This document shows, in pieces, positions 1,379 to 9,657 of a DNA stretch of 27,181 bases. This stretch comes from a virus. The stretch spans positions 1 through 27,181 of IMG/VR virus record IMGVR_UViG_3300011115_000314. One strand, written 5' to 3'. The notes under the pieces were generated by a model. It was not told where the DNA came from, did not search any database, and saw nothing but the letters and a program-made list of their open reading frames with translations. A program made the position numbers and the translations under genes. Each line of letters begins with the position of its first letter. The stretch's first letter is position 1.

Positions 1379-1932
1379 TAACGCCCTAAATTGATGTTTA
1401 CTGGCCGGCCATAACCGGGGGGTATCTTTTCACCGGCATAGTCGCGGATTAAGCCATACGGCCCCAACGCGCCGTAGTCGCCCGTTCTGGCCTCTTGCAT
1501 TGCACCTTCTTGCGGCGGGTTGAAATCGTAGGTATCTTGAACCACTAAATTACCTTTGGCATCGCGTACATAGCGGAATCGTCCCAAAGTCGTCTGGACG
1601 TTACCCAGCGGATCACCCATAGAAAACAAACTGGGTGACGTAGACGCTGGGATTTGGTTGCGCGCACGCATTGCTTTTGCCAGCGTGTGATAGTCTTCAT
1701 ACTGAATATTGCCTGCGTTGCCGCCTTTTAGCAGAATCATTTCGCGTATTGCGGCCAACTCTTCGGGCGAAAAGTTACCTTCAGTTATGGGGTCGCGGAC
1801 GCCTTGCGCGGTTTCTAGTAACGTGCGTGCGCTGGTAGGAAACCTATGCGCAGGCAAGCGCTGCACCACAAAGTCAACCAAACGATTGACGCCGGTAACT
1901 TCTGGTGCAAGTTTATTTGTCGGCTGCGGCAT
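1378..1932 (-). CDS. Unrecognised 184-aa protein between the two terminase genes
   Basis: I do not recognise a family. The protein has a helical N-terminal half (residues 1-95, several Ala/Leu/Arg-rich stretches) and a C-terminal half rich in Gly, Tyr and Asp with a tract LGRFRYVRDAKGNLVVQDTY near residues 116-135, reading like a small beta-rich module. It has no signal peptide or membrane segment. The ATG at 1932 lies inside the last codons of the TerS-like gene (20-base overlap) and the stop overlaps the terminase ATG by one base, so it is translated as part of the packaging operon. Context suggests a packaging or virion-associated role, but this is inference from position only. Confidence 0.75.
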   Translation of the reverse strand: MPQPTNKLAPEVTGVNRLVDFVVQRLPAHRFPTSARTLLETAQGVRDPITEGNFSPEELAAIREMILLKGGNAGNIQYEDYHTLAKAMRARNQIPASTSPSLFSMGDPLGNVQTTLGRFRYVRDAKGNLVVQDTYDFNPPQEGAMQEARTGDYGALGPYGLIRDYAGEKIPPGYGRPVNINLGR

Positions 1933-2359
1933 AGTGTTTTACCTTGTGTTCTAAGGTTGGACTTGGCTCATGGGCGATGACGTCGATGACGCGGGACTCA
2001 GCGTCGCGCAGCGCCTGGGTGACTGAGATGCGTTGATCAACATCAATGGTGATGGATTGTTTGGCCACCCAGCCGTGGACATTTTGCAGGATTGCCAACG
2101 CCGCCTTGGCGTCGCCCTCGCGCGCTGCTTTGTGCAAACACTGCGACATTTCCAACTCAGCGTCTGCCTTGCCTTTGAGCGCCGCCATTTCCGCAATTGG
2201 GTCAAGCTGCACCAATTGCCGGTACTCGGAAGGCAACATGCCAGAGGCCAGCGCCAACGCATCACCTTTTAGCCCCAGCTTGGCGGCTTCGTAGATGCGA
2301 GTTAAGCGCGCCTCAGTCGCTTCGACCTTGCGCGGTGCAAAAGGTAGGCTTTCGAACAT
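1913..2359 (-). CDS. Putative terminase small subunit
   Basis: A 148-aa, mostly helical protein upstream of, and co-oriented with, the large terminase. Small subunits bind the pac/cos region and load the motor. Residues 17-55 (RLTRIYEAAKLGLKGDALAL then ASGMLPSEY) look like the helix-turn-helix part of TerS proteins, and a central segment ELEMSQCLHKAAREGDAKAA followed by LAILQNVHGW matches what I recall of TerS-type proteins in proteobacterial phages. The start is the ATG at 2359, with a weak CAGG just upstream. The frame stays open further upstream through the 9-bp repeats, but only with a TTG start, which I reject. The assignment combines context and recollected similarity; a DNA-binding regulator is the main alternative. 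Confidence 0.68.
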   Translation of the reverse strand: MFESLPFAPRKVEATEARLTRIYEAAKLGLKGDALALASGMLPSEYRQLVQLDPIAEMAALKGKADAELEMSQCLHKAAREGDAKAALAILQNVHGWVAKQSITIDVDQRISVTQALRDAESRVIDVIAHEPSPTLEHKVKHYAAADK

Positions 2360-2457
2360 GGCCTGAATATAACAAAAATTTTTAAAAAAATCTGTGGGTC
2401 GTGTGGGCAATGTGGGCAATAAAAAATTTTGTTTGCGGCCCCTCCGCTTCCGTGACC

Positions 2458-2494
2458 TTCGGCGCTCGGCCCTACCCGGGGGCCCTCAGCCGAA
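2458..2494. other. GC-rich two-tier hairpin in the control region
   Basis: The outer arms TTCGGC (2458-2463) and GCCGAA (2489-2494) pair perfectly. The inner arms GGCCC (2468-2472) and GGGCC (2480-2484) pair around a 7-base loop, with a 4-by-4 internal loop between the two stems. No T-run follows on either strand, so it is not a typical intrinsic terminator. It sits between the leftmost tandem 9-bp repeats and the rest of the repeat array. It could be a cruciform or single-strand initiation structure, or a leader RNA element of the leftward packaging transcript. Confidence 0.5.
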
Positions 2495-2640
2495 AGCAAA
2501 ATGCCACGCGGCCACCAGCCGGTAACCTTACAGAATCTTACATTGTAGTACTTTAGTGGGGGGCAATGTGGGCATTGCTTACATTACCTACAGGATGCGG
2601 GCTTGGGGCTTTCGCCATGCGCCATACACGTTTGAGCGTC

Positions 2641-2672
2641 AAAATGTAGGCAAGTCGAATTGCCTACATTTT
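2641..2672. promoter_or_regulatory. Perfect 13-bp dyad made of two inverted 9-bp repeat units
   Basis: AAAATGTAGGCAA (2641-2653) and TTGCCTACATTTT (2660-2672) are exact inverse complements separated by six bases (GTCGAA). Each arm contains one complete unit of the surrounding 9-bp repeat. A run of T follows on the plus strand, so a weak terminator is possible, but the stem is only moderately GC-rich and no plus-strand gene lies upstream. A dimeric protein-binding site in the repeat array is the simpler reading. Confidence 0.65.
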
Positions 2673-2985
2673 TTCCCTTTTAAATCATAGGCTTAGCGCA
2701 AAAAACCGGTTTTGTAGGTAATCTTTTTGGGAATTTCAGTCGCAGCCAAAACGGAGGGGGCTGGTGGCTGAAAGCGTCCGCATATCATCCAACCTTACAG
2801 CTACCTTACAATAATTATGATTTTGTCAACACATTAAAAAACCATTACCTACATTACCTACAAACCCCATTTCTCCCTCTGTAGCCATGTAAGCAATTCA
2901 CCCCTTTTCGCATTGCTTACACACTACCCACGCATTGCCTACAATTGAATACCCTACTTGCACAAAGGGTCAATATTCACATGGG

Positions 2986-3014
2986 TTGACAAGTGCAAGG
3001 CAATCCCTTACATT
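2986..3014 (+). promoter_or_regulatory. Sigma70-like promoter for the rightward early cluster
   Basis: A perfect -35 hexamer TTGACA (2986-2991), a 17-base spacer, and a -10 candidate TACATT (3009-3014, four of six matches) lie just ahead of the first rightward gene. The -10 overlaps a CTTACA-type degenerate repeat unit, so a protein bound to the repeats could occlude it. Spacing and position are good; activity is inferred. Confidence 0.6.
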
Positions 3015-3021
3015 ATCAACA

Positions 3022-3039
3022 CCGCGCGATCTTGCGCGG
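3022..3039 (+). promoter_or_regulatory. Leader hairpin upstream of the first early gene
   Basis: CCGCGC (3022-3027) and GCGCGG (3034-3039) form a perfect six-base-pair stem with a six-base loop in the predicted leader, about 20 bases before the start codon at 3060. No T-run follows, so it is not a terminator. It may stabilise the transcript 5' end or modulate translation. Confidence 0.45.
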
Positions 3040-3059
3040 CTACAGTAAAGGCAAACACC

Positions 3060-3257
3060 ATGAAATTCGCATTTATCCCCAAAGCCACCTACACAATCGG
3101 TCAAATTATCCAAGTGCATGGCAAGCCCATGCGCGTTGAAAGCTACACACACACGGGCAAAAACGTAACCGTGCACACGCTAGAGGGTGCACCTAAGTTT
3201 GAGCGCATTGTTTGCGTGTGCACTGACAGCCGCGCCATTGAGGGAATAACAGCATGA
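3060..3257 (+). CDS. Small early protein, 65 aa, unknown function
   Basis: The first gene of the rightward early cluster. The ATG at 3060 follows a TAAAGG ribosome-binding site; upstream extension would need a TTG start inside the promoter, which I reject. The protein reads as a small beta-rich domain: a QIIQVHGKPMRVESY stretch, then alternating hydrophobic residues with THTGKNVTVH, and a C-terminal FERIVCVC. I do not recognise the family. The gene ends with an ATGA overlap into the next start. Small early proteins of this kind often take over host functions, but nothing in the sequence fixes a role. Confidence 0.72.
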   Translation: MKFAFIPKATYTIGQIIQVHGKPMRVESYTHTGKNVTVHTLEGAPKFERIVCVCTDSRAIEGITA

Positions 3258-3337
3258 AAACCAAACTCTTGGACATCTTGGGCGCGGTTTTCTTCGCCAT
3301 GTGCGTATTTTTACCTTTTCTTTTTTGGAAATTCTGA
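3254..3337 (+). CDS. 27-aa single-span membrane peptide
   Basis: Starts at an ATG overlapping the previous stop (ATGA) and ends at a TGA two bases before the next ATG at 3340. The product has a basic start (MKTKLL) followed by one continuous hydrophobic stretch (residues 8-25, with LGAVFFAMCVFLPFLFW), consistent with one inner-membrane helix. There is no frame room for anything else in this 82-base gap, and the exact fit between its neighbours supports it being a real gene. The function is unknown; superinfection exclusion or membrane-modifying roles are typical for such phage peptides. Confidence 0.55.
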   Translation: MKTKLLDILGAVFFAMCVFLPFLFWKF

Positions 3338-3339
3338 CC

Positions 3340-3567
3340 ATGAAACACACCATCTGTTACGCTTATCCCACCTCTGACCTCGCCAACAAAGTTGGCAAGC
3401 ATGGCTACATCGTCAACGATGCGCACCAGTTTGATGAATACCTGGATGCGCTCGCCTACGCTCAAACCCTTGGCACTGAGCCCGATCGTTGGTCAATCGA
3501 TCACCCCAAAAACGCTACGTTTTTAAAAGATGCGCAACGCTTGAAAGCCCATCATTCCCGCATCTGA
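3340..3567 (+). CDS. Small early protein, 75 aa, unknown function
   Basis: A soluble protein starting MKHTICYAYPTSDLANKVGK, with acidic and aromatic residues through the middle (HQFDEYLDALAYAQTL) and a basic C-terminus. The ATG at 3340 sits directly after the stop of the 27-aa peptide, so it is probably coupled; no strong independent ribosome-binding site is visible (GGA at some distance). I do not recognise a domain. A 78-base gap with two palindromes follows. Confidence 0.7.
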   Translation: MKHTICYAYPTSDLANKVGKHGYIVNDAHQFDEYLDALAYAQTLGTEPDRWSIDHPKNATFLKDAQRLKAHHSRI

Positions 3568-3578
3568 CAGTGCAACCT

Positions 3579-3615
3579 ATTGCATCCATTGGGTGCAATC
3601 GGGTGACTTGTCACC
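3579..3615. promoter_or_regulatory. Two adjacent palindromes upstream of the 88-aa gene
   Basis: ATTGCA (3579-3584) pairs with TGCAAT (3594-3599), and GGTGAC (3602-3607) pairs with GTCACC (3610-3615) across two bases. Both lie in the only real gap within the early cluster, 31 bases before the ATG at 3646. They look operator-like or could form small RNA hairpins; no convincing promoter accompanies them. Confidence 0.35.
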
Positions 3616-3645
3616 AATTCAATCAACTTCACTGGAGTACACGAT

Positions 3646-3912
3646 ATGAACCGCGTAACTGAAAAGCAACTACAAGCCGTAGTTGATCGCTTGAACCGCA
3701 TCACCAATTCGCCCATGTCGCCATACCTTGGCAGCAAAGCCCAGCCCGGCAACTACCATTTGAGCCATGCCTATGGCGGCATATGCTTGCATCGTATGGT
3801 CAATGAGGGCGGCGGCGTATCTTCGCCCTTGTCAACTGGGCATATCCCAAAACGCGAATTGTTGAATTTAATGCACGCCTACATCAGCGGGATTAATGAG
3901 GTGACAGCATGA
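3646..3912 (+). CDS. Small early protein, 88 aa, unknown function
   Basis: The ATG at 3646 follows a GGAG site at good spacing. The N-terminal helix (MNRVTEKQLQAVVDRLNRIT) resembles the opening of many small phage proteins that begin by recognising two substrates or partners through a helix, followed by a Gly/Pro/His-rich segment (AQPGNYHLSHAYGGICLHRM) and a C-terminal helix. I recall similar small proteins in many phages, without a known role. Its last codons contain GAGGTGA, the ribosome-binding site for the next gene, whose ATG overlaps the stop. Confidence 0.75.
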   Translation: MNRVTEKQLQAVVDRLNRITNSPMSPYLGSKAQPGNYHLSHAYGGICLHRMVNEGGGVSSPLSTGHIPKRELLNLMHAYISGINEVTA

Positions 3913-4082
3913 AAACCTACCAAATAACACTTGTATACACCGCGTATGTGCATTATGAGATTGAGGCCGAAAGCGAAGCGGCAGCGGAGCGAGAGGCTTG
4001 GCAACGTGTAGACGCGGATTGTGGTGAATGTACGCAGTATGGCGAATGGGAAACATCTGACATTGAGGAGGTGACAGCATGA
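3909..4082 (+). CDS. Small acidic early protein, 57 aa
   Basis: Starts at the ATG of an ATGA overlap preceded by GAGGTGACAGC. The translation opens MKTYQITLVYTAYVHYEIEA and continues with a Glu/Ala-rich helix (AESEAAAEREAW), then an acidic Cys-containing tail. A beta strand pair followed by a helix is the likely fold, as in many short phage proteins that start with M-K-x-Y-x-I/V. The C-terminus ends EEVTA, which encodes the same coupling signal used by the preceding gene. Function unknown. Confidence 0.68.
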   Translation: MKTYQITLVYTAYVHYEIEAESEAAAEREAWQRVDADCGECTQYGEWETSDIEEVTA

Positions 4083-4411: not shown

Positions 4412-4687
4412 ATGCAAACTGTAAAAATTGGAAAAACTACATACCGCACGCATCGCGCGGACATTTTTGGCCACCACGCCAAAGCTACCGGTAAGCATAA
4501 GCCGGTCAAGTCCAAGGGCGCGGAAAAACGCCTATACCCTCCCATGGGGGCCAGCATGAGCACCGCCGAATATGTGACCGCGTATGAAATGCTTAACGCG
4601 GGGAAACACCTCACCGCGTGGGGCTGGCAGCCTTTGAGCACCACACCCACGGTGCCCGCCGGCGAAGATGCGGCCTGGGTTGAATAG
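4412..4687 (+). CDS. Small early protein, 91 aa, unknown function
   Basis: The ATG at 4412 follows GGAGAGTAAACC, where GGAG serves as the ribosome-binding site and overlaps the end of the previous gene. The N-terminal half is very basic (residues 5-42, many Lys, Arg and His), suggesting nucleic-acid contact, and the C-terminal half has helical STAEYVTAYEMLNAGKHL followed by an acidic tail. I do not recognise the family. Confidence 0.72.
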   Translation: MQTVKIGKTTYRTHRADIFGHHAKATGKHKPVKSKGAEKRLYPPMGASMSTAEYVTAYEMLNAGKHLTAWGWQPLSTTPTVPAGEDAAWVE

Positions 4688-4765: not shown

Positions 4766-4794
4766 AAAGGGCCCCTAATCGGGGTCCTTTTTTT
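4766..4794 (+). terminator. Intrinsic terminator of the rightward early cluster
   Basis: AAAGGGCCCC (4766-4775) pairs with GGGGTCCTTT (4781-4790), with one G-U pair and a five-base loop, followed by an uninterrupted T run to 4794. It ends the rightward early transcript and lies at the 3' end of the convergent primase gene. On the minus strand only a short T run follows the stem, so it should work mainly rightward. Confidence 0.88.
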
Positions 4795-7060
4795 ATGTCT
4801 CAACCAAAGCCCGGAGGTCTGATTTTGAGGTCGCCAACATATCGGGAGCGCAGAATATGTGCTTTCGGGTTGAATGGGCGCGGGAGGCCAACCGCCCGCA
4901 ATCAACCCATCCGGCTTCTTTGAGAGCGTGCAAAAGAGCAGCGGGGACAATCTTGGTGCCTACGGGTTGCGCTTGGCCTTGCAGGCGGTCGCAAAGGCCA
5001 TGGAAGGGGGAACCCACCACGCCCCGCGCAAACTCGCCCACGCGGCGGCGCATTTGATCGAGCAGCCAGGATTCCGCGCCGCTCATGCCGTGCTCGACCA
5101 TGATGGCCTTGGCCTCGGTCATGGGAGGCGGGGCGTTTGGATTCCACGCGGACACATCGCGGGTGTGGAGGTAATGGGCCACGGCCTCAAACCCGCCCCG
5201 GTGTTGATACCAATTCCACAAGCTCACCGCCTGAGCTTCCGGGAGCTTGGGGGCATCTGACCAAAGACAAAACCACCGGCGGTCTTCGCTGGGAATTGAG
5301 ATGGCGGCGCGTTCATTTGAAAAGGCGATCACGAAGACGCGATTGAGGGCCATGTAAGGGTGAAGCCCTTTTCGGTTGACCGGCAGCAACTCAGGGGGCG
5401 CGGCGATGATGGGCTTGAGGGTGTTCTCTAGCGCCCTGCGGTCTTTGGCCTCGGCTTGCCTGAGCTCGGCGATCTCCATCACCTCGCACTCGAGCGCGTA
5501 ACCCCACTGAGAGGTCAACTCTTCATTCTTGACCAATGAACAATTGACCTTGGCCTTGCCGCCAATTGCCCAAAAGAAGGGGGCAAACAAGGTATCTTTG
5601 CCGCTGCCATGGTTGCCGCCCATGAGGATGGCGTGGTTGATCTTGTGGGCGGGGAACTGCACCTTATGGGCCAAGGCATTCAAAAGGTGCTCACGCTCGA
5701 AGGGCTCAGGAATCATGCGCTCCAAGTGGCGCATCCACAAGGAAACATCGCCCGCGACGGGCTCCGGGCGGGCATTGCGCCATCGGTTGCCATAGACCTG
5801 ACCATCACGGGCGACCAGCACCGTCTCGCCTGCGGCGTAGGTAATGCCTACCAATGCCTTGCCGCCCTTAGCTTGACGGTGCTCATCGAAGGCGTAGGAC
5901 GCCTCGACCCGGCGTTTATTGTTATGCACTGAGATGCACTTGATATGCCGGTACAAGGCGTTAAACGTGCCCCGCGACAACTCACGCCGGTCAAGCATAT
6001 CAAAGTAGCTGTCATCGGTTTGGATGTATGCGAACCTGTCCCACCACTCAGCCATCTGGATGCGGCCCAATTCCTTGCGCTCCACCTCAGCGACAACACG
6101 GGCAGCCTCGTTTGGATAATCAGGCGTAGGCGCAATCTTACTTAAAGCTGACTCCATGGCCTGGGTGAGCAGCTCCTCACGCAAGCCGGGGTTATGAGCG
6201 GGGCCACCTTGGTTGGCGACCCACGTCAGGAAGGCGCGGGAGTCGAAGTCCACGCAATGCGAGTGCAGGCAGCAATAGGCGCGGTTTGCGGGCATGTAGC
6301 GGCCCTCTGGGTTGCCGTCGGTATGCTCGGCGCTGTTGGGGCAAATGACGCCCGCCCAGCCCTCGCCGTTGGGCTTGGACAGCAGCAAGCCCTGGCCACT
6401 GAGCCACGCCATGACGTCATCGGCGCCATCATCGGACAGTCGAATGGGGCGCAGGGTGAGCGAGTCGGGTTCCACTGGTGTGACACCCAAGGCGGCGCAG
6501 ATACCATCTAGTGTGTATTCGCGCTCTGGGTGAAACTCCACCAGGCGCGCGGCGAAGTTGTCGCGGCCTGGCTTTAGATTCACACTGCCGGGCAAACGGA
6601 AGTTGCGCACCGGGTTACAGGCGCCGGGGTCGGTGTAACCCGCCTCGGCGATGGCCTTGATGGCCGCGCTGAACTCGGCCTTGGTCGGCTGGTCGCTGAA
6701 GGCGTAGCCCCACTGAAATGAGCCGGGGGACGTCTCCATGATCCAGGTCGGCTCAAGCGGGGGCGTCTTGGACTTGGTGCCGATGTCGTCGAGCATCATC
6801 ACCAAGATGTATTCACAGTTGGCAGCGGACGCTGACACGCGGCCATCGGTGAATCGGTCAATGATGAAGCTGGCCGTGTTGGCGTACCATGCCTGCCCCT
6901 CTCGGGTGCCTTTGCTGGGCAGGTACGCGGGCCAGGTGCATTTGACCGCCCCGTCGGCGTGGAGTTGTATCTCGCCGTCTTTTAACTGTGGTTTTTGGCG
7001 CACAATAAGCGCTGTCTCGCCACTTGGGGCCAATTTTGTGATAAATTCCAGGAATTCCAA
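4793..7060 (-). CDS. Primase-helicase: AEP-type primase fused to SF3 (D5-like) helicase
   Basis: A 755-aa replicative primase-helicase. The N-terminal part resembles an archaeo-eukaryotic-type (RepB/D5-like) primase: a DDIG acidic motif at 91-94 and NFRLPGSVNLKPG at 153-165. A putative zinc-binding region follows (C240, H246, C263, C264, H266, H268, C269). The C-terminal half is an SF3 helicase with Walker A GGNHGSGKDT at 481-490 and a sensor-like FSNERAAISIP at about 580-590, as in DUF5906/D5-type helicases. The start is TTG: an AAAGGAG site lies at ideal distance and no ATG occurs before residue 88. It is the last gene of the leftward replication operon and is separated from the polymerase gene by a hairpin. 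Confidence 0.92.
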   Translation of the reverse strand: MEFLEFITKLAPSGETALIVRQKPQLKDGEIQLHADGAVKCTWPAYLPSKGTREGQAWYANTASFIIDRFTDGRVSASAANCEYILVMMLDDIGTKSKTPPLEPTWIMETSPGSFQWGYAFSDQPTKAEFSAAIKAIAEAGYTDPGACNPVRNFRLPGSVNLKPGRDNFAARLVEFHPEREYTLDGICAALGVTPVEPDSLTLRPIRLSDDGADDVMAWLSGQGLLLSKPNGEGWAGVICPNSAEHTDGNPEGRYMPANRAYCCLHSHCVDFDSRAFLTWVANQGGPAHNPGLREELLTQAMESALSKIAPTPDYPNEAARVVAEVERKELGRIQMAEWWDRFAYIQTDDSYFDMLDRRELSRGTFNALYRHIKCISVHNNKRRVEASYAFDEHRQAKGGKALVGITYAAGETVLVARDGQVYGNRWRNARPEPVAGDVSLWMRHLERMIPEPFEREHLLNALAHKVQFPAHKINHAILMGGNHGSGKDTLFAPFFWAIGGKAKVNCSLVKNEELTSQWGYALECEVMEIAELRQAEAKDRRALENTLKPIIAAPPELLPVNRKGLHPYMALNRVFVIAFSNERAAISIPSEDRRWFCLWSDAPKLPEAQAVSLWNWYQHRGGFEAVAHYLHTRDVSAWNPNAPPPMTEAKAIMVEHGMSGAESWLLDQMRRRVGEFARGVVGSPFHGLCDRLQGQAQPVGTKIVPAALLHALKEAGWVDCGRLASRAHSTRKHIFCAPDMLATSKSDLRALVET

Positions 7061-7101: not shown

Positions 7102-9022
7102 ATTTGCCGTATCTCGACATGATCGCCACTTCTGCGTCAAGGGGCAAGCCCTTGGCCCACTCGGGCGGCGTACACATCACTTCTTTCAATCGCACGGCCA
7201 TCTCCTCTGGCCGGTCGGTTTCCAACACCACCTCGTCATGGACGTGGAGCACCACGTCATCGAGCTGGCGCAGGGTATGGCGTAGCAAATCATTGGCGGT
7301 GGCCTGGGTGATATTCTCACACGCCAAGCCTTTCCAAAGCCTTGCACGCGGCCATTCTTTTGCGTCTGCTGCTGGTTTCCAAGCGGCTTTGGCGTAGGTC
7401 ACACCATCGGCGTCTAGCTTGGCAAACGGGTAGCAGAGCACTCGAGCGGAGGGCAGAGCGTACCAGAGATGCTGGCCGTCGAACATATAGGTGACCCGCC
7501 CCGCGCTGAATTCAAAGCCCTTGTTGCGCATGGCGCGGGTGTAGGCTTCTTCAAGCTGCTGCCAGTAAGGCACAGACCAAGGGTTTGCCCTGCGCCATGC
7601 GTCAACCATGCGCTTGGATTCAAACTCAGTGAGCTGCACGCCATAGGCGCGGCCCATGGCCGCAAAGGCACCCACGCCACCGGCAAAGCCGCAGGCGAGC
7701 TCTTGCACCTTGCCGATCTGGCGTTGGTCTTTGGTCACATCAGCCACGGACACGCCAAAGGTGGCGGCAGCGTTGACCTTGTACACGTCCTCGCCCTTGG
7801 CAAAGATGGCCAACTTGTCGTCCCCACGGCCTGAGAGCCAAGGGTTGGCGCGGGCCTCGATGGCGGCCCAATCGGCCACGACCAAGGACTTGCCGGGCGC
7901 TGGGATCAATGCGGGCCTGAGCATCCCCTTGAGGACATCAGTAACGCGCTTTCCAAATCGAGGAACAATTGAATGGCCTCTGACCATTGCAACTCTAACG
8001 TCTTCGGGCGATTCGGCGCACTTGCGAGTGAAATTGTGAACCTGGGCTCCATAGCTTGACGCTCGGCCTGTGGCGCTGCCGCCTGCGAATACAAACGCGC
8101 CTCGAACCCGGTTGTCCTCGACATCTGCCAGGCTTGCAAGGCGGCTGAACTTCGCAACCGACGACGCCCAGAGGTCATCGGCGCATTGAATGACTTCTTG
8201 AACATCTGGTGGGACATCCTCACAGTTTAAAAGATTCGCTCTGACGGTTTTGTCGATGCTGTACTTCATCTCGCCGTCTTTGTAGGTTTCCATGAGCTTG
8301 AGAGCCTGCGGCCCCACGCGCTCAATCACCCACTGGCGCATCTTGGGAGAGCGCACGCTGGTGATGGCGCCTTCGGTGACCTCGGCCACGATCTGCTCGA
8401 TCTCGACCAACTCGTCGCTGGCGTACTTGATGGCCGCCTTGCACAGGGGCACATCGACCAAAACGCCCCGGTCGTTGATGCGCTCGTTGACGTGGTAGTC
8501 GGCCAACTCATCTGCTGACAGTGGCCGCAGCGCCTTGCTGATCGAGCGCATGGCACGGACGTCTTGTTCGCAATAGCGGATCATCTCGGCCATCAGCTCA
8601 GGGTCTTGCCTGAATGTGCCATCGGCCTGTGGGACGGACAGCAAGCGGATCAACTGTGAGCCGCGATGGTCTTTCTTCATAGACGCGCCGGCAAAGCGGC
8701 CAACGTCTTCAAGCGAACCCGGCGCGCAGTTGGCGCGGGCTTGGGCTGCGGTGCAATAGAACTGCTCCAGATCAAAGTTGATCTGCAACACATACCAAAA
8801 AATCAAACGCTCAAAAGCGGCGTTGTGGGCGTAGATCAAGCCCTTGTGATTGCGCACGCTCGCGGGAAATGGTTGATCAGGTGTCCAAGTCTGGACGTCA
8901 TCATCATCAAAAGCCCACGACATACACAGCACGTCGGTCGATGGGTCTTGCGCGTAGTTGTAAACGCCCGCGACTTTTAGGTCGCAGGCGCTACGGGTTT
9001 CAAAGTCAACCCAAAGAGTCAT
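7100..9022 (-). CDS. Family A DNA polymerase with 3'-5' exonuclease domain
   Basis: The replicative polymerase. Residues 4-10 (WVDFETR; D6, E8), AHNAAFE at 65-71 and YCEQD at 150-154 are the exonuclease motifs. In the polymerase domain, motif A is VVADWAAIEAR (381-391, D384, E389), motif B is RQIGKVQELACGFAGG (434-449, R434 and K438), and motif C is HVHDEVV (593-599, D596, E597). At 640 aa it matches compact phage polymerases that lack a 5'-3' exonuclease domain. The ATG at 9022 overlaps the stop of the upstream gene by one base (TGATG). It lies between the putative ssDNA-binding protein and the primase-helicase. Confidence 0.96.
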   Translation of the reverse strand: MTLWVDFETRSACDLKVAGVYNYAQDPSTDVLCMSWAFDDDDVQTWTPDQPFPASVRNHKGLIYAHNAAFERLIFWYVLQINFDLEQFYCTAAQARANCAPGSLEDVGRFAGASMKKDHRGSQLIRLLSVPQADGTFRQDPELMAEMIRYCEQDVRAMRSISKALRPLSADELADYHVNERINDRGVLVDVPLCKAAIKYASDELVEIEQIVAEVTEGAITSVRSPKMRQWVIERVGPQALKLMETYKDGEMKYSIDKTVRANLLNCEDVPPDVQEVIQCADDLWASSVAKFSRLASLADVEDNRVRGAFVFAGGSATGRASSYGAQVHNFTRKCAESPEDVRVAMVRGHSIVPRFGKRVTDVLKGMLRPALIPAPGKSLVVADWAAIEARANPWLSGRGDDKLAIFAKGEDVYKVNAAATFGVSVADVTKDQRQIGKVQELACGFAGGVGAFAAMGRAYGVQLTEFESKRMVDAWRRANPWSVPYWQQLEEAYTRAMRNKGFEFSAGRVTYMFDGQHLWYALPSARVLCYPFAKLDADGVTYAKAAWKPAADAKEWPRARLWKGLACENITQATANDLLRHTLRQLDDVVLHVHDEVVLETDRPEEMAVRLKEVMCTPPEWAKGLPLDAEVAIMSRYGK

Positions 9023-9657
9023 CAGGCAGACCGACGACGACGGCCAGCGGGTGCAGGCGCAGGTGCTTCTTCAGCCACCTCGGGCTCACCGTCCATGCTG
9101 ACCCATTCGACAATATCAAACACGGGCGTGTAGATTTTGCCGTAGCTCTTGTGGGCGTAGTGATCCTTTTTGAGTTTCACAATCGCCACCGGCTTTGTTT
9201 GGTCTTTTTCAACCTGCTCTGCCAAAGCCACTGCCAAGGTCTGCACAGCGCGTTTGCCGCCCACTGACGTGGTGGTGTACCGCGCTTCCATGCCCTTGTC
9301 TTCACCGCTGATGCACTTGAGGCTCATGCCCACTTGTGTCTCCCAGCCTTTTTTAGCGCCAGGGGGCGCTTCATCAAGCTCGGGCAACGGTTGGGACACC
9401 GACGCCATTTTCTCGGCCAACACTTCACCGTCGCCCCAGGCGATGAAGCCGTGGACAAAGCTGAAAGGATTGATGGCCCAAGTGGAGTCGTCTTCCACTT
9501 CGGTTTGATCGGCACCGAAAACCCAGTGGCCAGTTTTATCCATTTTGAGGATGACTGTGCCGGCTGGGCCAACGTCTGCTTGGATCGCGCGCAAAGCGGT
9601 CGAGAGGGTGGAGACTGCGGGCAAGCCCGCTTGAGAGAACGCTACTAAATTGGACAT
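9022..9657 (-). CDS. Putative ssDNA-binding / replication accessory protein
   Basis: A 211-aa protein with a long beta-rich core (for example GTVILKMDKTGHWVFG near residues 33-48, and VGMSLKCISG), a Pro/Glu linker at about 93-104, and a disordered acidic then basic tail (EVAEEAPAPAPAGRRRRS). An OB-like core with a charged flexible tail is typical of phage single-strand binding proteins. In many phages the slot between a DUF2800 nuclease and a family A polymerase is held by an Enc34-type (DUF2815) ssDNA-binding protein, and this gene fills that slot, but I do not see direct DUF2815 motifs. The ATG is preceded by AAGGAACAGAA, whose first bases overlap the nuclease stop. Function is inferred from position. 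Confidence 0.7.
   Translation of the reverse strand: MSNLVAFSQAGLPAVSTLSTALRAIQADVGPAGTVILKMDKTGHWVFGADQTEVEDDSTWAINPFSFVHGFIAWGDGEVLAEKMASVSQPLPELDEAPPGAKKGWETQVGMSLKCISGEDKGMEARYTTTSVGGKRAVQTLAVALAEQVEKDQTKPVAIVKLKKDHYAHKSYGKIYTPVFDIVEWVSMDGEPEVAEEAPAPAPAGRRRRSA

Follow-up and report, generated by a model that had tools for sequence, protein, structure and literature searches.

Among the closest described systems, the alpha protein of P4 binds the repeats of its origin through a C-terminal winged helix, according to the account of it given in PMC4234260 (citing Ziegelin and Lanka 1995; Yeo et al. 2002). SCCmec Cch2 likewise uses its C-terminal domain to bind direct repeats of a putative origin (PMC7581432). 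The origin of pRN1, whose ORF904 protein comprises an AEP primase, an SF3 helicase and a winged helix, is a stem-loop without iterons, and the authors suggest that such proteins assemble at stem-loops (PMC4234260). NrS-1 polymerase is described as recognising TTTGGTTA in its template, and the role of its fused helicase domain has been called unclear (PMC8718748). Both iteron origins and C-terminal origin-binding domains are already known.

Here we describe an array of short repeats in a 27,181-base stretch of viral DNA (IMG/VR record IMGVR_UViG_3300011115_000314; hereafter the window), which we judge most likely to be the iteron-type origin of a freshwater phage, read by the phage's own NrS-1-like primase-helicase, with putative binding, melting and replication start at this site. 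The C-terminal end of this protein is the apparent reader because one residue there and the repeat change together repeatedly among nearly 200 related phages, and the enzymology of the proposed initiator is what points to origin function.

Like P4 alpha, the protein of the window holds helicase and primase parts in one chain and is predicted to bind origin repeats through a C-terminal winged helix, whereas P4 alpha carries a bacterial Toprim-type primase and the present protein a RepB-like primase part (a weak Pfam match). The repeats of P4 have a sequence other than those of the window. With ORF904 the protein shares a comparable domain order and a C-terminal winged helix, but it tracks iterons rather than a stem-loop. 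Its Pfam match and its nearest viral predicted structures liken it to the NrS-1-like PrimPol-helicases (PF19263), although a C-terminal domain that reads double-stranded iterons, as proposed here, was not found for NrS-1 in PMC8718748. SaPI Rep and SCCmec Cch2 resemble the proposed arrangement in that each contacts short repeats of its own element's putative origin with a C-terminal domain (PMC7581432); however, in those elements the helicase gene immediately adjoins the origin, and primase and helicase are separate, whereas in the window the array lies some 2 kb from the gene and the primase part is fused.

The repeats occupy a gap (2360-3060) that is bounded by a small-terminase-like (terS-like) gene on the minus strand and by rightward early genes that begin at 3060. 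Exact matches to TTRCYYACA number 12 in this gap versus two in the rest of the 27-kb fragment, and all 12 fall within 542 bp (2402-2943). For the whole window, the 14 matches compare with 1.6 expected and no shuffle reached 14, while in 500 shuffles of the gap sequence the count averaged 0.1 and never exceeded 2. The looser pattern NNRCYYACA finds 14 copies in the gap, on both strands, adding CGACCCACA at 2393 and ATGCCCACA at 2567. The preliminary description of this DNA had reported at least 13 near-exact copies on both strands, including three strictly tandem groups of period 9, and had stated that a similar density of the repeat elsewhere or in shuffled sequence would speak against an origin. 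Our count of 14, including the two looser copies, agrees with it, the repeat is rare both outside the gap and in shuffled DNA, and the three tandem groups recur at 2393-2419 (copies at 2393/2402/2411, minus strand), 2575-2592 (2575/2584, plus strand) and 2845-2862 (2845/2854, plus strand). A search for inverted repeats within the gap revealed two inverted iteron pairs, at 2645/2660 and 2888/2913. The features of the gap and its border are as follows.

1913-2359, minus strand: small-terminase-like gene bordering the array, named by its position before the large terminase gene.
2372-2392: AT-rich tract between the trio and the terS-like start; a possible unwinding element or part of a packaging site, judged from sequence and composition.
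2393-2419, minus strand: iteron trio CGACCCACA-TTGCCCACA-TTGCCCACA in strict tandem, adjoining the terS-like start.
2420-2434: A/T tract TAAAAAATTTTGTTT flanking the trio on the side away from the terS-like gene, kept in relatives.
2440-2500: GC-rich block adjoining the trio; a candidate core-origin or cos/pac element, based on alignment.
2567-2575, minus strand: iteron ATGCCCACA, which differs from TTRCYYACA at position 1.
2575-2592, plus strand: tandem iterons TTGCTTACA-TTACCTACA.
2645-2668: inverted pair of TTGCCTACA iterons (2645-2653 minus, 2660-2668 plus).
2713-2721, minus strand: iteron TTACCTACA.
2806-2844: AT-rich stretch (79% AT) just left of the 2845/2854 pair; a candidate DNA-unwinding element.
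2845-2862, plus strand: tandem iterons TTACCTACA-TTACCTACA.
2888-2921: inverted pair of TTGCTTACA iterons (2888-2896 minus, 2913-2921 plus).
2935-2943, plus strand: iteron TTGCCTACA.
2986-3014, plus strand: early promoter-like site, TTGACA-17-TACATT.

The trio abuts AT-rich tracts, as had been described, with A/T tracts at 2372-2392 and 2420-2434. AT-rich DNA flanks both sides in 47 of 100 cases among relatives, a modest excess over the 33.7 expected. A search of Rfam gave no match. The element ACCTTACA occurs three times in the gap of the window, and one relative (L018) carries at least six tandem copies of AACCTTACA upstream of its terS-like gene. Cumulative GC skew was set aside as an origin marker; the minimum, at 3001-4000, has little depth and tracks gene orientation.

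The leftward genes include those for a large terminase, the primase-helicase, a family A DNA polymerase and a DUF2800 protein, among others. The product of the terS-like gene has no match in Pfam or PHROG. The protein encoded at 9022-9657 is labelled SSB-like by its place in the module, and its PHROG family is nucleotidyltransferase. The parts of the primase-helicase gene that matter for the argument are these.

4793-7060, minus strand: primase-helicase of 755 residues, the proposed initiator, assigned from Pfam and predicted structures.
4796-5083, minus strand: C-terminal domain (residues 660-755), the proposed iteron-binding domain, on the basis of a winged-helix model and covariation.
4871-4888, minus strand: codons for wing-loop residues 725-730 (Ala725 ... 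Ser730), of which 725 and 730 vary in step with the iteron sequence.

The primase-helicase matches the NrS-1-like helicase domain PF19263 at 41.6 bits (cut-off 27.6), and its nearest viral predicted structures in BFVD are named NrS-1 polymerase-like helicase. A match to RepB_primase is weak, at 22.8 bits just under the cut-off of 24.3, and no Toprim domain was found with Pfam. AlphaFold2 was used to model both the C-terminal part and the complete protein, on an alignment from which L083 was left out; for residues 660-755 the two models share the order helix-strand-helix-helix-strand-loop-strand-helix, which is that of a winged helix. The pLDDT is about 80-95 over these residues in the domain model; the remainder of the models, including the N-terminal half, is poor. 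In both models, residues 725-730 sit in the loop that joins the last two strands, which is the wing. A fold search of the PDB returned nothing significant (best E 0.09), several of the weak matches being winged-helix regulators, and a sequence search of the PDB with the domain alignment gave chance-level matches only, with no solved origin-binding domain among them.

Relatives were collected by scanning viral contigs with the primase-helicase, and the removal of duplicates that shared an identical primase end left 124 loci in a first set and 81 in a later set. Most carry 9-mer arrays, tandem and opposed, in the same gap before the terS-like gene. The 9-mers themselves vary (xxGTCCACA, xxGTCCATA, xxGCCAACA, TGACCYACA and xxGCCGACA), and the window's own group has xxGCCTACA and TTGCTTACA. 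Conservation in relatives, whose absence the preliminary description had named as a refutation, is thus seen in position and architecture rather than in the exact sequence. The complete 38.8-kb record MW202483 (L083), whose primase-helicase is 52% identical to that of the window, has 11 copies of GTTTACA within about 350 bp of the same place and four elsewhere.

Other repeats accompany the iterons in some relatives. In loci L019-L059 and others, the stretch that separates the iterons from the terS-like gene contains a further repeat, CACTAACTTAG / AAGTTAGTG; its copies, often about 29 bp apart, occur in many mid-distance relatives, and none was seen in the window's group. In L071, about 16 copies of GCAGCCAGC lie in the kilobase upstream of the terS-like gene. 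Two relatives of the primase-helicase (L336, with A725 and mixed boxes, and L339, with K725 and TTGTCCACA boxes) lie in contigs binned as a Rhodoferax MAG, and hosts may for this reason be freshwater Betaproteobacteria.

The evidence that joins protein to repeat comes from the way in which the two vary together. An initial scan, over 39 loci, singled out residues 725 and 730 as the only ones to divide loci with T at repeat position 4 (T4) from the others. An enlarged scan covered 102 loci, 38 of them with at least two T4 boxes, and left out MW202483 and L099; the latter, with its one T4 box, is the only locus to depart from the pattern when two boxes are required. Among 753 primase columns, only 725 and 730 reached a normalised mutual information of 1.0 with T4. 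K725 together with D or E at 730 accompanies T4 boxes, and loci whose residue 725 is A, S, G or H go without them. The best columns of other proteins reached 0.42 (terS-like), 0.44 (TerL), 0.48 (PolA), 0.52 (SSB-like) and 0.50 (early protein 4412-4687). The terS-like protein and TerL were accordingly rejected as readers of the repeat, as was early protein 4412-4687, the product of the most widespread early gene.

On a tree made from primase residues 1-660, which excludes the C-terminal domain, K725 changes at least 11 times, and residue and repeat agree in nine of nine independent pairs on well-supported branches (two-sided sign test, p about 0.004). The later set served as held-out data, and all 42 of its loci with R723 fit: each of the 27 with K725 has 7-19 T4 boxes, each of the 15 others has at most two, and three of three independent pairs agree. 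Changes confined to one lineage include R727S with ATA-ended boxes (four loci) and S725 with CCGACA boxes (four loci). The preliminary description had proposed an iteron origin, and had noted that the phage encodes its own primase-helicase; an origin read by that enzyme gains ground from the co-location of the array in relatives and from its co-switching with two residues of the C-terminal domain.

A segment swap that carries domain and array together could mimic part of this coupling. Nonetheless, the terS-like gene, which lies closer to the array than the primase domain does, shows no coupling. Two pairs of loci, L046/L047 and L228/L235, have primases that are close on the tree, yet their domains and repeats differ. 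Between L046 and L047, the domain is 65% identical and the array 42-46% identical in several stretches, while the terS-like gene and parts of the intervening early genes are 85-100% identical. Given that the identity of this pair falls at domain and array while such stretches are conserved, simple linkage is disfavoured, though possible.

The covarying protein also bears on what else the array might be. If it were solely a multi-copy operator, through which the primase-helicase or an early protein shuts off the 2986-3014 promoter and the terS-like gene while replication starts elsewhere, then the position of the array between divergent genes and the repeat-like CCCTTACAT that overlaps the -10 of the early promoter-like site would be readily understood. 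However, the protein that covaries is a replication enzyme whose gene lies in another transcription unit beyond the early genes, and an array of 14 copies, with its tandem groups and AT-rich tracts, is more than a single promoter would require. Moreover, the small early proteins tested gave no significant Pfam match, and among the early proteins of the window none had a match to a DNA-binding family. An operator for an early repressor, which the preliminary description had offered as its alternative, thus loses ground because the apparent recognising protein serves replication; we regard a purely regulatory array as the main rival, and as an unlikely one. A regulatory side role, in which the repeats let the primase-helicase damp the early promoter, is possible since one repeat-like site overlaps that promoter.

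The same comparison of columns weighs against a packaging site (cos/pac) to which the small terminase would bind. The trio reads CCCACA also in aligned relatives of both specificity types, and the GC-rich block at 2440-2500 upstream of the terS-like gene is kept in relatives with either repeat type, so that trio and block, directly before the terS-like gene, look the same in both. However, among the terS-like and terL columns there is none that follows the repeat type, and the array extends over 550 bp. The trio and the GC-rich block may serve packaging, whereas the array as a whole does not fit such a role; that the array, or at least the trio, is such a site strikes us as very improbable.

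The T4 boxes also recall degenerate DnaA boxes that host DnaA might bind, in that the K-type TTGTCCACA is one base from TTATCCACA and MW202483 encodes a protein with a DnaA-C domain. This 98-residue protein (L083:31423-31719) is almost wholly a DnaA C-terminal DNA-binding domain and is encoded near the primase-helicase gene. The boxes of the window, however, have C at position 4, and TTWTNCACA is absent from the gap and occurs once in the window, at 734. The DnaA-C domain (PF08299) was found in one of 48 records, MW202483 itself, the other 47 being mostly fragments. Host DnaA would moreover leave the tracking of residues 725 and 730 unexplained. Because the window's repeats lack T4 and the DnaA-C domain is confined to one record in 48, we consider recognition by DnaA very unlikely.

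Returning to the primase-helicase as reader, the correspondence between residue and repeat is imperfect. Loci L062-L069, which have K725 and R723, carry [GA]CCCACA without T4 boxes, and [GA]CCCACA likewise replaces T4 boxes in 21 held-out loci that combine K725 with L723; the simple rule that K725 means T4 is broken by both groups. Near-identical A725/Q730 domains are paired with either CCAACA or CCYACA boxes. With the patterns used, T725 loci gave no clear array. As read from these sequences, the rule is one-way: T4 goes with K725, and boxes with a base other than C at position 6 dominate only in genomes that lack K725, while the reverses fail. Other residues or a relaxed reading must also matter, given the K725 loci without T4 and the near-identical A725/Q730 domains with differing boxes.

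With these caveats in mind, we propose that the primase-helicase (4793-7060, minus strand) would bind the iterons through its C-terminal winged-helix domain, whose wing loop at about residues 725-730 would read positions 4 to 6 of the 9-mer and, in one lineage, also position 8. Many bound copies would gather or load the helicase ring on the array, and adjacent AT-rich DNA (2806-2844, the tracts beside the trio, or both) would melt. The same protein might then unwind the DNA and prime synthesis for the phage's family A polymerase. The proposed binding step draws on the covariation, and the later steps follow what is known of related initiators.

RCCCACA boxes are present with all main types. 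It is plausible, though slightly less likely than not, that wing residues 723, 725, 727 and 730 switch the specificity of many natural initiator-origin pairs, and that RCCCACA is a bridge tolerated by both main types, so that a readable protein-DNA code and compatibility groups would exist among close relatives. If the bridge hypothesis is true, it would account for a trio that remains CCCACA even as the other parts of the array switch.

In the open-licence literature we found no description of an iteron array for an NrS-1-like primase-helicase, nor of repeated co-switching between wing residues and repeats, and such an absence is weak evidence of novelty. For this class of phages, the covarying array supplies a definite candidate for the origin, together with a recognition rule that can be tested on nearly 200 natural variants. 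The pattern further suggests that, among closely related phages, initiator-origin pairs are exchanged or shifted time and again, which is a possible barrier to mixed replication.
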